A DNA stretch of 64,000 bases. Origin: Acidobacteriota bacterium (GTDB lineage: Bacteria; Acidobacteriota; Terriglobia; Acidiferrales; UBA7541). The translations under genes were made by a program, and so were the position numbers. Where the stretch lies: assembly GCA_023481105.1 (NCBI GenBank), contig JAMCWK010000136.1, positions 1-64,000 of the forward strand. The letters run 5' to 3'. Of the stretch, positions 10,949 to 17,529 are shown piece by piece (the stretch's first letter is position 1; each line of letters starts with the position of its first letter). Under the pieces are notes generated by a model. The model saw only the letters and a program-made list of their open reading frames with translations, did not search any database and was not told where the DNA came from.

Positions 10949-11614
10949 ATGACAGTCATTCTGGTCCTCGCAACCTTCGTAGTTCTGCTGACGCTGGAGT
11001 ACTTCATGCACCGCGTTCCGGCGCCGCAACCGGCCGAGCAATTGGCCGAGCCGAAACCGCCCCGCGCGTTGCCGGAATTTGTCGCCGGCTTTGCGTTGCC
11101 TGAAAATCTCAGCTATCACCCGGGCCACACCTGGGCGCTGAGCGAAAGCCCGAATCTGGTACGCGTGGGCATGGACGATTTCGCCGCGCGCCTGTCAGGA
11201 AACGTGGCCAGCATTCAGTTGCCGCAGCGCGGGCAGTGGGTGCGCCAGGGGCAGAAAGTCGCCACGCTCCTGCGCAACGGGGCCAAGGCGGAGATGGTCT
11301 CCCCAATGGAAGGGATCGTTTCGGACGTGAACGACGCTGTGCAGCTTAACCCCGAGCTGGCGCGGCGCGACCCCTATGGCGAAGGGTGGTTGGTGAAACT
11401 GAATGCGCCCGACGCCAAGCTGAACTTCCGGAATTTGCTGAATGGAATGGTGGCGCGGCGCTGGATGGAAGAGGCGGCTGCGCGTCTTCGCCTGATGGTG
11501 GAAACAGCCGCAGCGGCATTGGCGCAAGACGGCGGCGTGGCAGTGGAAGACGTCAGCGGACTTCTGACTGACGAAAAATGGGCCAGCTTGATGCAAGAGT
11601 TCTTCCTTTCGTGA
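10949..11614 (+). CDS. Membrane-anchored glycine-cleavage H-protein-like (lipoyl-domain) protein
   Basis: N-terminal TM (VILVLATFVVLLTLEYF), then H-protein-like YHPGHTWAL...GMDDFAARLSG...VSPMEGIVSDVN; Lys113 lies where the lipoyl-Lys is expected. Confidence 0.72.
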   Translation: MTVILVLATFVVLLTLEYFMHRVPAPQPAEQLAEPKPPRALPEFVAGFALPENLSYHPGHTWALSESPNLVRVGMDDFAARLSGNVASIQLPQRGQWVRQGQKVATLLRNGAKAEMVSPMEGIVSDVNDAVQLNPELARRDPYGEGWLVKLNAPDAKLNFRNLLNGMVARRWMEEAAARLRLMVETAAAALAQDGGVAVEDVSGLLTDEKWASLMQEFFLS

Positions 11615-11642
11615 GCTGCATGGGCCTCACCTCTCTGCAAGG

Positions 11643-11683
11643 AAATGGGCGATCCCGCAACGCGGGATTGCCCATTTTTGTTG
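11643..11683 (+). terminator. Rho-independent terminator
   Basis: AAATGGGCGATCCCGC-AAC-GCGGGATTGCCCATTT followed by TT. Confidence 0.88.
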
Positions 11684-11862: not shown

Positions 11863-11877
11863 TGGCAGGCCAATTGC
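11863..11877 (+). promoter_or_regulatory. Strong candidate sigma-54 promoter TGGCAGGCCAATTGC
   Basis: One mismatch to TGGCACGNNNNTTGC; 33 nt upstream of ATG 11911. Confidence 0.65.
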
Positions 11878-11910
11878 CCTTTCCAATCCTAGCCGCGCCG
11901 TGGAGCCCAG

Positions 11911-12681
11911 ATGAGCAAGTCTATCCTTTACGATGCTACCCTCTGCATCAACTGCAAGCAGTGCGAAGTCGCCTGCGCGGAACAGAACAAACTCCCGTAC
12001 AACGAAACTATCGCTGCGGAGCAAAAACAGTCCGCGCACAAATTCACCGTTGTGCTGGAGTCTGCCGCGGCGGACGGCAAGTTCATGCGGAAGCTTTGCA
12101 TGAACTGCGCAGACCCGACGTGCGTTTCGGTGTGCCCCGTCGGAGCCTTCACCAAAACAGCAGCCGGCCCGGTGGTGTACGACGAAACTAAATGCATGGG
12201 CTGCCGCTACTGCATGCTGGCGTGCCCCTTCGGCGTGCCGAAGTACGAATGGGATAAGGCGCTGCCGCTGGTGCGCAAGTGCGATATGTGCGCGGACCGC
12301 GTGAGCGCAGGAAGACCCACGGCCTGCACGGAAGCTTGTCCGACGGGCGCCACGATATTCGGAGAACGCGAGACCCTGATTGCCGAAGCGCAAAAGCGCA
12401 TTAAGGAAAAACCCGACCAGTACGTGAACCACGTCTATGGCGTGGAGGAAGTCGGCGGCACGTCAGTGCTGCTGCTTTCCAGCGTGCCGTTCGAGCAGTT
12501 CGGCTATCGCAGCGATTTGATGCACGACCCACTGCCCATGCTCACGTACCGCGTGCTGGCTCGGATTCCAGACCTGGTGGGGCTGGGCGGAATGCTGCTG
12601 GGCGGCATCTGGTGGATCACCAACCGGCGCGCTGAGGTTGCCGCTGCCGAAGCGCCTGTGCGCGCGCACGAGGAGAAATGA
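11911..12681 (+). CDS. HybA-like 4Fe-4S ferredoxin oxidoreductase subunit with C-terminal TM anchor
   Basis: Four Cys clusters (CINCKQCEVAC, CMNCADPTCVSVCP, CMGCRYCMLACP, CDMC...CTEACP); C-terminal hydrophobic segment; no N-terminal Tat signal. Confidence 0.88.
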   Translation: MSKSILYDATLCINCKQCEVACAEQNKLPYNETIAAEQKQSAHKFTVVLESAAADGKFMRKLCMNCADPTCVSVCPVGAFTKTAAGPVVYDETKCMGCRYCMLACPFGVPKYEWDKALPLVRKCDMCADRVSAGRPTACTEACPTGATIFGERETLIAEAQKRIKEKPDQYVNHVYGVEEVGGTSVLLLSSVPFEQFGYRSDLMHDPLPMLTYRVLARIPDLVGLGGMLLGGIWWITNRRAEVAAAEAPVRAHEEK

Positions 12682-13886
12682 CGATGCCGGAAAAATTCCA
12701 ACTGCCAAAACTAACGTTCTGGAAAGCGGCGCTGGTGCTGATTGCCCTCACCGGGCTCTACGCCACGTTTGTGCGGTTTGCGCAAGGACTGGGCGCTTCA
12801 ACCAACTTGTCAGACGAGTTTCCGTGGGGGATCTGGGTAGGCTTCGACGTGTTGTGCGGAGTCATGCTGGCAGCGGGTGGATTCACGCTTACCGCCACCG
12901 TTTATATTTTCAATCTCGAACGCTTCCGTCCCATCGTGCGCCCCACGGTGCTGACGGCGTTCCTGGGCTACTCGCTGGTGTGCGTGGCGCTGCTGTTCGA
13001 CCTGGGACGCAGCTACCGCATCTGGCACCCGCTGGTGATGTGGAATCCCAGGTCGGTGCTCTTCGAAGTGGGTTGGTGCGTGACGCTGTACACCACGGTG
13101 CTGGCGCTGGAGTTTGCGCCCGTGGTGTTTGAGCGGCTGCAACTGGAACGGCCGCGGCGCATCCTGCGGGGGATTTCGATTCCTCTTGTGATCGCCGGCG
13201 TCATGCTCTCCACGCTGCACCAGTCCTCGCTGGGAAGCCTGTACCTGATCGTGCCGCAAAAGCTGCATCCCTTCTGGTACTCGCCGCTCCTCCCCGTCTT
13301 CTTTTTCATTTCGGCCATCGCAGTGGGGCTGGCGATGACCATCTTCGAATCCTCGATGACCTCCAAGCATTTCGGCAAACAACTGGAGTTGCCGCTGCTG
13401 CGGGAACTCGGCCGCATTTTGGCCGTAGTGCTGCTGGTGTACACGGTGCTGCGCACACAGGACCTCTACCATCGTGGCGCGTTGAAGCTGGTGCTCCAGC
13501 CAAGCTACGAAACTTGGCTGTTCTTGCTGGAGGTGCTGCTCGGCCTCGCGGCGCCCATCGTGCTGCTGCTGATTCCCCGGGTGCGGCAGGCGGCCGGGGG
13601 CCTCTACCTGGCGGCCGTGCTGACTTTGCTGGGTTTCATTACCAACCGGCTGAACGTGAGCACCACCGGCATGGAAACTTCGGCGGGAATGCACTACGTC
13701 CCGAAGTGGACGGAGTTGGCGGTGACCGCCAGCATCATTGCCGTGGGCTTTGCGGCCTTCGCGCTTGCAGCAAAACATCTGCCCATTTTTTCAAACCATA
13801 CCGGCGCGCCGCCGGAAGCCGGCTCGCGCCGGTCCAAGGCGATCTTCGTTGAGAAGAAGGAGGAGGGCGTTCTGGTTGGAAGGTGA
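12678..13886 (+). CDS. HybB/NrfD-family integral membrane subunit
   Basis: 402 aa multi-TM; PWGIWVGFDVLCGVMLAAGGF and STLHQSSLGSLYLI motifs. Confidence 0.88.
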   Translation: MTMPEKFQLPKLTFWKAALVLIALTGLYATFVRFAQGLGASTNLSDEFPWGIWVGFDVLCGVMLAAGGFTLTATVYIFNLERFRPIVRPTVLTAFLGYSLVCVALLFDLGRSYRIWHPLVMWNPRSVLFEVGWCVTLYTTVLALEFAPVVFERLQLERPRRILRGISIPLVIAGVMLSTLHQSSLGSLYLIVPQKLHPFWYSPLLPVFFFISAIAVGLAMTIFESSMTSKHFGKQLELPLLRELGRILAVVLLVYTVLRTQDLYHRGALKLVLQPSYETWLFLLEVLLGLAAPIVLLLIPRVRQAAGGLYLAAVLTLLGFITNRLNVSTTGMETSAGMHYVPKWTELAVTASIIAVGFAAFALAAKHLPIFSNHTGAPPEAGSRRSKAIFVEKKEEGVLVGR

Positions 13887-15577
13887 GCATGCCGGAACCG
13901 GAAACACAACCATCGCCTCCACACCACCCGTGGACACGCAGCCTGAGCGTGAAACTCACGGCCATGCTCGTGCTCGGGATGGTGGTCTGCTTCGGTTTGC
14001 TGGGCTACTTGAATATCCGCCTGCATCGCAAGCATCTGGAACAATCTGTACTGGTCAGCGCGGAGCGAAACAGTGAGGTCATCAAGCGCAGCACGTCGTA
14101 TTCGATGCTGCGCAATGACCGCGAAGGGCTGTATCACGCCATCCAGACGATGGCTGCGCAGCCCGGCGTGGTGCGCATTCGCATCTTCAACAAGGAAGGA
14201 CGGATCAGCTACTCCACCGACCCGGCGGAAGTAAATGCGCTGGTGGACAAGCGAGCAGAAGCTTGCTACGCGTGCCACGCGCAGGCCCAGCCGCTGGCCC
14301 ACTTGGACCGGCCGGACCGCTTCCGCATCTACCGCGCTGCGAACGGAGAGCGCGTGCTGGGCATCATCAATCCCATCGAAAACTTGCCTTCGTGCTCGAC
14401 GGCGGAATGCCATGCGCATCCTGCCGGGCAAAAGATCCTCGGCGTGCTGGACACCAATCTTTCGCTGGCGCTGACAGACCAAGACTTGGCGGAAAGCTCG
14501 CGGCAGATGACCTATTACACGGTCTTGGCGGTGGCGGCGATTTCTCTGCTGAGCGGGCTGTTTGTATGGCGCATGGTGTACCGGCCGATCCGTGTGCTGC
14601 GCAGCGGCACCGAGCGGCTGGCGCGAGGTGAACTGGGCTACCAGATCGAAGATGCGTCACGCGATGAAGTAGGCGCGCTGGCGGATTCCTTCAATGCCAT
14701 GAGCCGCGAGCTGCGCGAAGCGCGCGAGGAAATCACGGCGTGGGCGCGCACGCTCGAGGTGCGCGTGGAACAAAAGACGGGCGAGCTGCAACGCGCGCAG
14801 GAATGCATGCTGCAAGTAGAGAAGATGGCGTCCATCGGGAAACTGGCGGCCGTGGTGGCGCACGAAATCAATAATCCGCTCGCGGGCATCCTCACCTACA
14901 CCAAGCTGATGAGGAAATGGGTGGAGCGCGGCGAGTGGGACGAAGCGCGGCGCGCAGAAATGCGCAGCTCGCTGGACCTAGTGGAAAGCGAAAGCCGCCG
15001 GTGCGGGGAAATCGTGAAGAACCTGCTGGTCTTTTCGCGCTCCGCACCCATGAACTTGGGGTGGACAGACCTAAACTCCGTGGTGGACCGCTGCGTCTGC
15101 CTGGTGCGCCACCAACTCGAACTGGCCAACATCGAGCTGCAACTGGAATTGGCCGAAAGCTTACCGGTGGTGCACTGTGACGCTGCACAAATGGAGCAAG
15201 TGCTGCTGGCGCTGGTGATGAACGCCATTGACGCCCTGCCCCGCGGCGGGCGGCTGCGGCTGTGCAGCCGACTGGCTTCGGACCGCGCACTGGCAGAACT
15301 GGAAGTGCAGGACGACGGTATTGGCATTCCGCCCGACCTACTCCCCAACCTGTTCGAGCCGTTCTTCACCACCAAAGAGCGAGGTCACGGAGTGGGGCTT
15401 GGCTTGGCCATCAGCCGCGGCATCATCGAGCGGCACGGCGGGAAAATTTCTGTGGTCTCGGAGCCGGGCCGTGGCACGACGTTTACCATCCGGCTGCCGC
15501 TGGAAACCCGCCCGCCGGAAACTCCGAAACCGGAAAAAATCGAAACGCAACCTGTTGCTGCAGTCAAAGCGAGGTGA
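13883..15577 (+). CDS. Membrane sensor histidine kinase with putative c-type heme motifs, HAMP and HATPase domains
   Basis: N- and mid-protein TMs, periplasmic CYACH and CSTAECH, HAMP region, AVVAHEINNPLAGILTYTKL H-box, DDGIGIPPDLLPNLFEPFFTTK and GVGLGLAISRGII. Confidence 0.88.
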   Translation: MSMPEPETQPSPPHHPWTRSLSVKLTAMLVLGMVVCFGLLGYLNIRLHRKHLEQSVLVSAERNSEVIKRSTSYSMLRNDREGLYHAIQTMAAQPGVVRIRIFNKEGRISYSTDPAEVNALVDKRAEACYACHAQAQPLAHLDRPDRFRIYRAANGERVLGIINPIENLPSCSTAECHAHPAGQKILGVLDTNLSLALTDQDLAESSRQMTYYTVLAVAAISLLSGLFVWRMVYRPIRVLRSGTERLARGELGYQIEDASRDEVGALADSFNAMSRELREAREEITAWARTLEVRVEQKTGELQRAQECMLQVEKMASIGKLAAVVAHEINNPLAGILTYTKLMRKWVERGEWDEARRAEMRSSLDLVESESRRCGEIVKNLLVFSRSAPMNLGWTDLNSVVDRCVCLVRHQLELANIELQLELAESLPVVHCDAAQMEQVLLALVMNAIDALPRGGRLRLCSRLASDRALAELEVQDDGIGIPPDLLPNLFEPFFTTKERGHGVGLGLAISRGIIERHGGKISVVSEPGRGTTFTIRLPLETRPPETPKPEKIETQPVAAVKAR

Positions 15578-15580
15578 CCC

Positions 15581-16969
15581 ATGGTGCGCGAAAAAGGGAA
15601 ACTGCTGATCGTGGATGACGAGCCGATCGTCCGAGATTCGCTCGGAAAATGGTTCCGCGAAGAAGGCTACGAAATCGGCACGGCGGAAAGCGCCAACGAG
15701 GCCTTGACCCGGCTGGCGGAACAGGCATGGGACCTCGCGCTGGTGGACATCAAGATGCCGGGCACGGACGGGATCCAACTGCAACGCCGCCTGCACGAAA
15801 TAAATCCCGAGCTCATGGTCATCATTATGACCGGCTACGCCTCGGTCGAAACGGCCGTGGAAGCGCTGAAGAACGGCGCGTACGACTACATCACGAAGCC
15901 GTTCGACCCGGATGACGTGGCGCACCTGGTGCGCAACGCGCTGTCTCATCGCCACGCCGAGCGGGAAAATGTGCGCCTGCGCGAAACGGTGGTGGAGGTG
16001 TCGCGGCCCAGCGAACTTATCGGGCAGAGCGCGGCCATGCAGCGCGTCTTTGAAGCCATCGAGACCGTGGGGCCGACGGACGCAACCGTGCTCATCACCG
16101 GCGAAAGCGGCACGGGCAAAGAGCTCGTGGCGCGGGCCATTCATACGGCCAGCGCGCGGCGCTACCACCCGCTGGTGGTGATTCATTGCGGCGCGCTGAC
16201 GGAAACGCTGCTCGAATCGGAGCTGTTCGGGCATGAAAAGGGCGCGTTTACAGGAGCGCAGTACCGCAAAAAGGGGAAATTTGAAATTGCCGAGGGCGGC
16301 ACGGTTTTCCTCGATGAGATCGGCGACATAAGCCTGAAGACACAAACGGACCTGCTGCGCGTGCTCCAGGAACGGGAAATCACCCGCGTGGGCGGGAACC
16401 AGCCGATCAAGCTGGACTTCCGCTGCATCGCTGCGACCAACAAAAACCTCGAAACATTGATCGAAGAAGGCAAGTTCCGGCCCGACTTGTTCTATCGTCT
16501 GAATGTCTTCCACATCGAAATACCACCTCTGCGGGATCGGAGAGAGGATATTCCCCTGCTTGTGGATCACTTCGTGCGCAAGTTCTCACTGGCCATGTCC
16601 AAGAAAATAGCGTGCGTGGCGCCGCTGGCCATGAAGATTTTGCAGGAACACGCCTGGCCAGGAAATGTCCGCGAGTTGGAAAACGCCGTGGAGCGCGCCA
16701 TGGTGGTGGCGCAGGAACCCGAACTGCGCGAACAGGACTTCACGCTAAAGCTGCAGCAGAACGGCGCCGAGGGCCGCCGGCTCGAGGATATCGAGCGCTC
16801 GCACATCCTGCGCGTGCTGGAGGAGTGCGGCGGCAATCAGACGCGCGCCGCAATCGTGCTGGCCATCGACAGGGTGACGCTCTACAACAAGCTGAAACGC
16901 TACGGTTGGAAACGGCCACACAGTGAATCACCGAACGAGGAACTAGCTTCGTCGGACCGGAAAAAATGA
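15581..16969 (+). CDS. Sigma-54-dependent NtrC-family response regulator
   Basis: Receiver domain (VDDEPIVRDSL...VDIKMPGTDG), AAA+ GESGTGKELVARAIH, GAFTGA loop, Fis-type C-terminal HTH. Confidence 0.95.
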   Translation: MVREKGKLLIVDDEPIVRDSLGKWFREEGYEIGTAESANEALTRLAEQAWDLALVDIKMPGTDGIQLQRRLHEINPELMVIIMTGYASVETAVEALKNGAYDYITKPFDPDDVAHLVRNALSHRHAERENVRLRETVVEVSRPSELIGQSAAMQRVFEAIETVGPTDATVLITGESGTGKELVARAIHTASARRYHPLVVIHCGALTETLLESELFGHEKGAFTGAQYRKKGKFEIAEGGTVFLDEIGDISLKTQTDLLRVLQEREITRVGGNQPIKLDFRCIAATNKNLETLIEEGKFRPDLFYRLNVFHIEIPPLRDRREDIPLLVDHFVRKFSLAMSKKIACVAPLAMKILQEHAWPGNVRELENAVERAMVVAQEPELREQDFTLKLQQNGAEGRRLEDIERSHILRVLEECGGNQTRAAIVLAIDRVTLYNKLKRYGWKRPHSESPNEELASSDRKK

Positions 16970-17529
16970 ACGGGATCGAGCTGCTGCCAGTAGGCGAAGT
17001 GGACGGCGCAGTGCTGGAGGAACTGCGCAACGGGCTGCGGTCCGTCTTTCGGGTTTCGTCTTTGGTGCTCGATCGTAAGCTGGATCCGACTTTTGCGCGG
17101 CACGCCGTGCGCAATCAATTCCACTCCAGCGAAATCCTCGCACAAATGCATGACGGCCTGCGGGCCGGCGTGCGGCGGGTGGGCGTGGCGAGCGTGGACC
17201 TGTACGTCCCCATCCTGACGTTTGTCTTTGGCGAAGCGGAGGTAGGCGGCGCGTGCGCCGTGGTGTCCATACATCGCCTGCGACAGGAATTCTATGGGCT
17301 GCCGGCGGACCCCGACCTCGAACGGGAGCGGCTGTTGAAGGAAGCTGTGCACGAATTGGGGCACACATTGGAGCTGACGCACTGCAACGACTACCGCTGC
17401 GCTATGGCCGCGTCGCATTCCGTGGAATGGATTGACATGAAAGAGGCGCAGTTTTGCGAGGACTGCCGCAACTCCGTTTCCCGGCTGGGAAGCGGCAACT
17501 CGGTTCGCGCTGGAAGGTATTGGATTTGA
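16966..17529 (+). CDS. amzA: Archaemetzincin-like zinc metalloprotease
   Basis: HELGHTLELTHCNDYRCAM...FCEDC matches the HExxH...HCx4CxM...CxxC archaemetzincin signature. Confidence 0.85.
   Translation: MNGIELLPVGEVDGAVLEELRNGLRSVFRVSSLVLDRKLDPTFARHAVRNQFHSSEILAQMHDGLRAGVRRVGVASVDLYVPILTFVFGEAEVGGACAVVSIHRLRQEFYGLPADPDLERERLLKEAVHELGHTLELTHCNDYRCAMAASHSVEWIDMKEAQFCEDCRNSVSRLGSGNSVRAGRYWI

Follow-up and report, generated by a model that had tools for sequence, protein, structure and literature searches.

The locus raises the question of whether a sensor histidine kinase with two c-type-heme-like motifs outside the membrane is a heme-based sensor and, if so, which of the motifs is the principal heme site, what the kinase would sense, and which genes it would control. 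These points were addressed in the window, meaning the whole 64-kb stretch of DNA that was analyzed, and in relatives of the kinase from other genomes.

Sensor histidine kinase and its two motifs

The kinase is the sole reading frame of more than 100 aa in the 64-kb window to contain at least two CX2-4CH motifs, and the four cysteines of its extracytoplasmic domain are all located in either CYACH or CSTAECH (Table 1). Codon reading confirmed the residue positions that the original prediction gave for these motifs (128–132 and 171–177, respectively), and the hydrophobic stretches at residues ~23–46 and ~209–231 bear out its placement of both motifs between two TM helices. The Pfam domains HAMP (7e-13), HisKA (1e-13), and HATPase_c (1.1e-28) were identified in the kinase; HisKA and HATPase_c, together with the adjoining response regulator, identify a histidine kinase two-component system. 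Genes for CcmF and other proteins of cytochrome c assembly are also present in the genome.

Table 1. Features of the kinase and its gene neighborhood, with coordinates in the window.
Feature	Coordinates	Strand	Evidence or remark
Membrane-anchored GcvH-like protein	10949..11614	+	Pfam GCV_H 4.4e-21; upstream neighbor in relatives
Sigma54-like promoter, TGGCAGGCCAATTGCC (putative)	11863..11878	+	Precedes HmcB-like gene
HmcB/HybA-like 4Fe-4S protein	11911..12681	+	NCBIfam HmcB 1.3e-78, under equivalog cut-off
HmcC/NrfD-like integral membrane protein	12678..13886	+	Pfam NrfD 3.3e-27; NCBIfam HmcC 4e-102, under equivalog cut-off
Sensor histidine kinase, 564 aa, GTG start	13883..15577	+	ORF and Pfam
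Kinase layout: TM1, Cache-type periplasmic sensor, TM2, HAMP, HisKA, HATPase_c	13883..15577	+	
TM helix 1, residues ~23–46	13949..14020	+	Hydrophobic stretch in sequence; helix in AF2 model
Met75, presumed heme 2 distal ligand	14105..14107	+	81/81 and 95/95; aligns with GSU0935 Met60
CYACH, residues 128–132, putative heme 1 site (additional)	14264..14278	+	78/81 homologs; absent in 6/95
CSTAECH, residues 171–177, putative heme 2 site (canonical position)	14393..14413	+	Cysteines 95/95
His179, accompanies wide-spaced site 2 motifs	14417..14419	+	79/85 CX3-5CH, 0/10 CX2CH
TM helix 2, residues ~209–231	14507..14575	+	Hydrophobic stretch; helix in AF2 model
NtrC-type response regulator (receiver, sigma54 activation domain, Fis-type HTH)	15581..16969	+	Pfam; conserved neighbor
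Archaemetzincin-like Zn metalloprotease, last operon gene	16966..17529	+	NCBIfam archmetzin 3.6e-46, over cut-off

Conservation of the motifs

When 60 related genomes were searched with the sensor part, without seeding on the motifs, there were 14 further proteins, all of which keep CX4CH and 12 of which keep CXXCH; with the window included, both motifs are present in 13 of 15 sequences. In a scan of genome contigs, for which CX4CH was contained in one of the two search patterns, the best 80 loci (nearly all from Acidobacteriota MAGs) and the window gave 81 sequences; 78 of these have both motifs, and Met75, Cys171, Cys176, His177, and His179 are present in every one. The retention of both motifs in 78/81 and 13/15 sequences argues that they are not chance occurrences. 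Motif conservation in homologs had been set beforehand as one point on which the original prediction could fail, and both motifs proved to be conserved; its reading of the protein as a c-type-heme sensor kinase is thus supported at the level of sequence, by this conservation and by relatedness to heme c sensors.

Relatives of the kinase sensor were identified by profile in 116 of 396 Acidobacteriota genomes in a survey of the phylum. Among 89 matches from this survey, 73 have exactly CX2CH at site 1 and CX4CH at site 2, eight have the X2/X2 combination, and three have X2/X3. Across 95 aligned sequences, Met75 and both site 2 cysteines are invariant; site 1 (CXXCH) is absent in six, and site 2 is lost in none. 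No kinase relatives were found in the plasmid collection searched, and phmmer, run with the single domain, yielded no useful match.

Relationship to heme c sensor domains

The best PDB match to a 36-sequence profile, with a weak score (E 0.0093), was the Geobacter heme c sensor domain 3b42 (GSU0935). The profile alignment consists of two co-linear pieces that place CX4CH on CQSCH and Met75 on chain position 26; both pieces are weak singly, and the aligned residues are invariant in the family. The aligned Met75 and site 2 residues are also present in relatives that have a heme motif at site 2 alone. In GSU0935, the His of CQSCH is a heme ligand, His144 (PMC8396549); with the motif His of 3b42, at chain position 110, taken as His144, chain position 26 corresponds to Met60, the distal heme ligand (PMC8396549). 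By this alignment, and with its cysteines present in 95/95 sequences, the heme c motif at site 2 lies at the strand 3–4 position, as in GSU0935.

AF2 models of the sensor (mean pLDDT 76 and 79) predict a Cache/PAS-like fold between the two TM helices, and Foldseek searches with these models matched WalK and CitA, both Cache sensors, and the heme sensor 3b42 (E <0.001), with 3b47 also matched in the first search. Structural superposition on 3b42 was poor (rmsd ~14 Å), perhaps because 3b42 is a domain-swapped dimer, and the CXXCH loop has low confidence in the models.

Based on the 3b42 alignment and the conservation data, CX4CH is the predicted ancestral or canonical heme site, and CXXCH is a predicted additional site. 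The first assumption had been the converse, with CXXCH canonical and CX4CH extra, and was reversed by these same data. The original prediction likewise described CXXCH as the classical heme c site and CX4CH as a rarer variant: the assignment of both as heme c motifs stands, but the ranking does not, with CX4CH at the canonical, invariant site.

Site 2 spacing and loss of the putative heme 1 site

The spacing at site 2 varies among the 95 aligned sequences (10 CX2CH, 3 CX3CH, 80 CX4CH, and 2 CX5CH). A His two residues past the site 2 motif accompanies 79 of the 85 wide-spaced motifs and none of the 10 CX2CH motifs (with or without heme 1). A role for His179 as the distal ligand of heme 1 is disfavored, this residue being kept in the absence of heme 1 and missing from two-heme CX2CH relatives.

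In a quick tree from which the motif columns were omitted, and in which the deepest branching is weakly supported, the X3 group and the X5 group each fall on one side of a branch. Three Acidiferrales proteins without heme 1 form a supported group inside the CX4CH two-heme proteins, and this placement indicates secondary loss of the putative heme 1 site. In these three proteins (L096, L099, and L103; Candidatus Acidiferrales/Acidiferrum), CXXCH is gone as a unit and CX4CH, Met75, and His179 are kept; by their motifs they are putative natural one-heme versions. The genome of the window and two of the MAGs without heme 1 belong to the same family. Two kinases on contigs titled Riflebacteria and Lentisphaerae (L066 and L078) are nested among the Acidobacteriota kinases in the tree, which reflects either horizontal transfer or misbinned contigs.

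It is possible, and we advance it tentatively, that Acidobacteriota have a widespread, operon-coupled two-heme redox kinase in which the spacing of the ancestral heme site has shifted between CX2CH and CX3-5CH with the extra His, and in which a second heme site occurs in most members and has been secondarily lost in some. If so, these proteins would constitute a natural series of sensor kinases that differ in the number of hemes and in the geometry of the heme site, alongside a quinone-module operon that is conserved.

Gene neighborhood and promoter

The order HmcB-like, HmcC-like, kinase, regulator, and archaemetzincin is retained in almost every close locus that has sufficient flanking sequence, and recurs in many distant relatives; four loci (L026, L065, L066, and L078) are without intact HmcB/HmcC-like genes directly upstream. 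The HmcB-like and HmcC-like proteins of the window scored 264 versus 420 bits and 342 versus 550 bits, respectively, against the NCBIfam equivalog cut-offs. No multiheme cytochrome gene was identified in the 64-kb window. The archaemetzincin-like gene is conserved as the last gene of the redox operon across Acidobacteriota; the literature searched held nothing relevant on archaemetzincin with a histidine kinase, or on Acidobacteria with HmcB/NrfD.

An N-terminal membrane anchor is present in the GcvH-like protein, the lysine of which, judged by eye, is off the lipoyl-lysine position of true GcvH. In relatives, the upstream GcvH-like gene is either co-oriented or divergent; the divergent copies come from loci read by hand, and the scripted neighborhood count covered the same strand only. 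A long terminator-like hairpin (11641–11679; 18 pairs followed by a T-rich stretch) lies between the GcvH-like and HmcB-like genes, consistent with a separate promoter for the latter.

The sigma54-like promoter site matches the sigma54-type (NtrC-type) regulator encoded in the same operon. Under a scoring scheme of our own weighting, and with 16 loci grouped after the first scan had been seen, a comparable site is present in 11 of the 16 loci where the GcvH-like gene is co-oriented, in none of the 51 other loci, and in 56 of 3000 random windows. Given this weighting and grouping, the sigma54-like site is supportive evidence for an operon promoter, not proof of one.

Proposed mechanism and alternatives

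The best explanation, and on balance a probable one, is a diheme redox-sensing two-component system that controls a quinone-linked electron-transfer module; heme binding, the ligands, redox as the signal, and the operon as the target are all parts that we infer. The periplasmic single-Cache domain of the transmembrane kinase would carry two covalently attached hemes, with heme 2 at CX4CH (171–177) in the ancestral site, His177 as its proximal ligand and Met75 as its distal ligand. Oxidation or reduction would alter Met75 ligation, and the resulting shift would reach the kinase by way of TM2 and HAMP. The heme at CXXCH (128–132), heme 1, would be accessory and located in a loop between strands 2 and 3; most likely it would relay electrons or tune heme 2, and it would be dispensable in some lineages. 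The kinase would phosphorylate the adjoining NtrC-type regulator, which with sigma54 would activate the operon; this operon encodes both the two-component system and a quinone-linked electron-transfer module of the HmcB/HmcC type. The switch is probably heme 2 (His177/Met75), with heme 1 as the accessory, based on the invariance of Met75 and the site 2 cysteines when CXXCH is missing in 6/95 sequences, and on homology with GSU0582/0935, in which oxidation detaches the axial Met and the spin state changes (PMC8396549).

In the main alternative, which we consider unlikely, the same two-heme protein would signal through the binding of NO (or CO) at heme 2, with Met75 displaced. A related heme c Cache protein with signaling architecture binds NO and releases it slowly (PMC12889525), and GSU0582/0935 bind NO and CO with displacement of Met60 (PMC8396549); however, the linked genes constitute an electron-transfer module rather than one for NO metabolism, and the distal Met is invariant, whereas the NO-sensing example is without a strong distal protein ligand (PMC12889525). 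Due to the linked quinone-type module and the invariant Met, we infer that redox is favored over NO as the signal. It is quite improbable that the protein is a one-heme sensor, with heme 2 alone present or functional and CXXCH unoccupied or structural: the loss of CXXCH, and never of site 2, in 6/95 relatives and the poor modeling of its loop would agree with this, but CXXCH is kept as a unit in 89/95 sequences and lost as a unit in Acidiferrales, as a functional heme site would be. Although CxxC with His can bind zinc in general, we give scarcely any credence to heme-free Cys-His motifs that coordinate a metal, zinc or another, or act as a thiol/disulfide switch, as site 2 aligns with a heme c site demonstrated by crystallography, the spacing varies from X2 to X5 while C...CH is kept, Met is invariant at the ligand position, and Ccm genes are present.

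Comparison with known systems

The favored diheme redox sensor resembles several described proteins. Geobacter GSU0582 and GSU0935 (PDB 3B47 and 3B42; PMC8396549) likewise have a PAS/Cache-like periplasmic domain flanked by two TM helices, carry heme c at the corresponding position, and have a distal Met in the N-terminal helix that aligns with Met75; they are, however, chemotaxis receptors, each with a single CXXCH, whereas the Acidobacteriota protein is a histidine kinase that has two motifs, with CX4CH in the position they share. The sCache_heme family (DUF3365/Tll0287, PF11845; PMC12889525) shares the Cache fold, a heme c motif between strands 3 and 4, and fusion to signaling modules, but its CXXCH is 99% conserved (PMC12889525), in contrast to the CX4CH at the homologous site and the second motif described here. 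The kinase of the window had no match to PF11845, which was matched by three of 15 members (best E 0.085). The Pfam heme-sensor family Mcp40H-20_sensor (PF21563) was matched at 21.2 bits (E 3.6e-4), under its 27-bit gathering cut-off, and was weakly matched by all 15 members (best 2.2e-5).

A possible parallel is Geobacter BccR (GSU0598), encoded beside GSU0599, a sigma54-type regulator of cbcBA, an inner-membrane quinol oxidoreductase used at low potential. Compared by description, GSU0591 and GSU0599 of Geobacter and Adeh_2011 and Adeh_3383 of Anaeromyxobacter are alike in having two heme c motifs, a periplasmic sensor, and CX2-4CH (PMC8396549, PMC3831638), and GSU0599 is annotated as a two-component protein (PMC8396549, PMC3831638). 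Twelve transducers from Geobacter whose one or two heme motifs have the signature CX2-4CH (PMC8396549) and two-motif Anaeromyxobacter proteins (PMC3831638) are on record. Since Geobacter (PMC8396549) and Anaeromyxobacter (PMC3831638) sensors are on record, one- and two-heme sensors are already known, and the Acidobacteriota kinase represents a conserved variant and not a new kind. In the literature searched, we found no description of the Acidobacteriota-wide operon, the loss of heme 1, the covarying His179, or the occurrence of CX4CH at the canonical site in a family whose described motif is strictly CXXCH.

Implications

The reading of redox potential outside the cytoplasm and the matching of the respiratory chain to it are poorly known beyond Geobacter. 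A two-heme sensor whose presumed ligand is conserved and whose gene is linked to a quinone module offers a small, testable example from a phylum that is dominant in soil, and the one-heme orthologs of Candidatus Acidiferrales, together with the X2–X5 variants, are ready comparisons for the roles of heme 1, spacing, and His179. If the proposed mechanism is correct, soil and groundwater Acidobacteriota would tune an electron-transfer operon to the ambient redox state.
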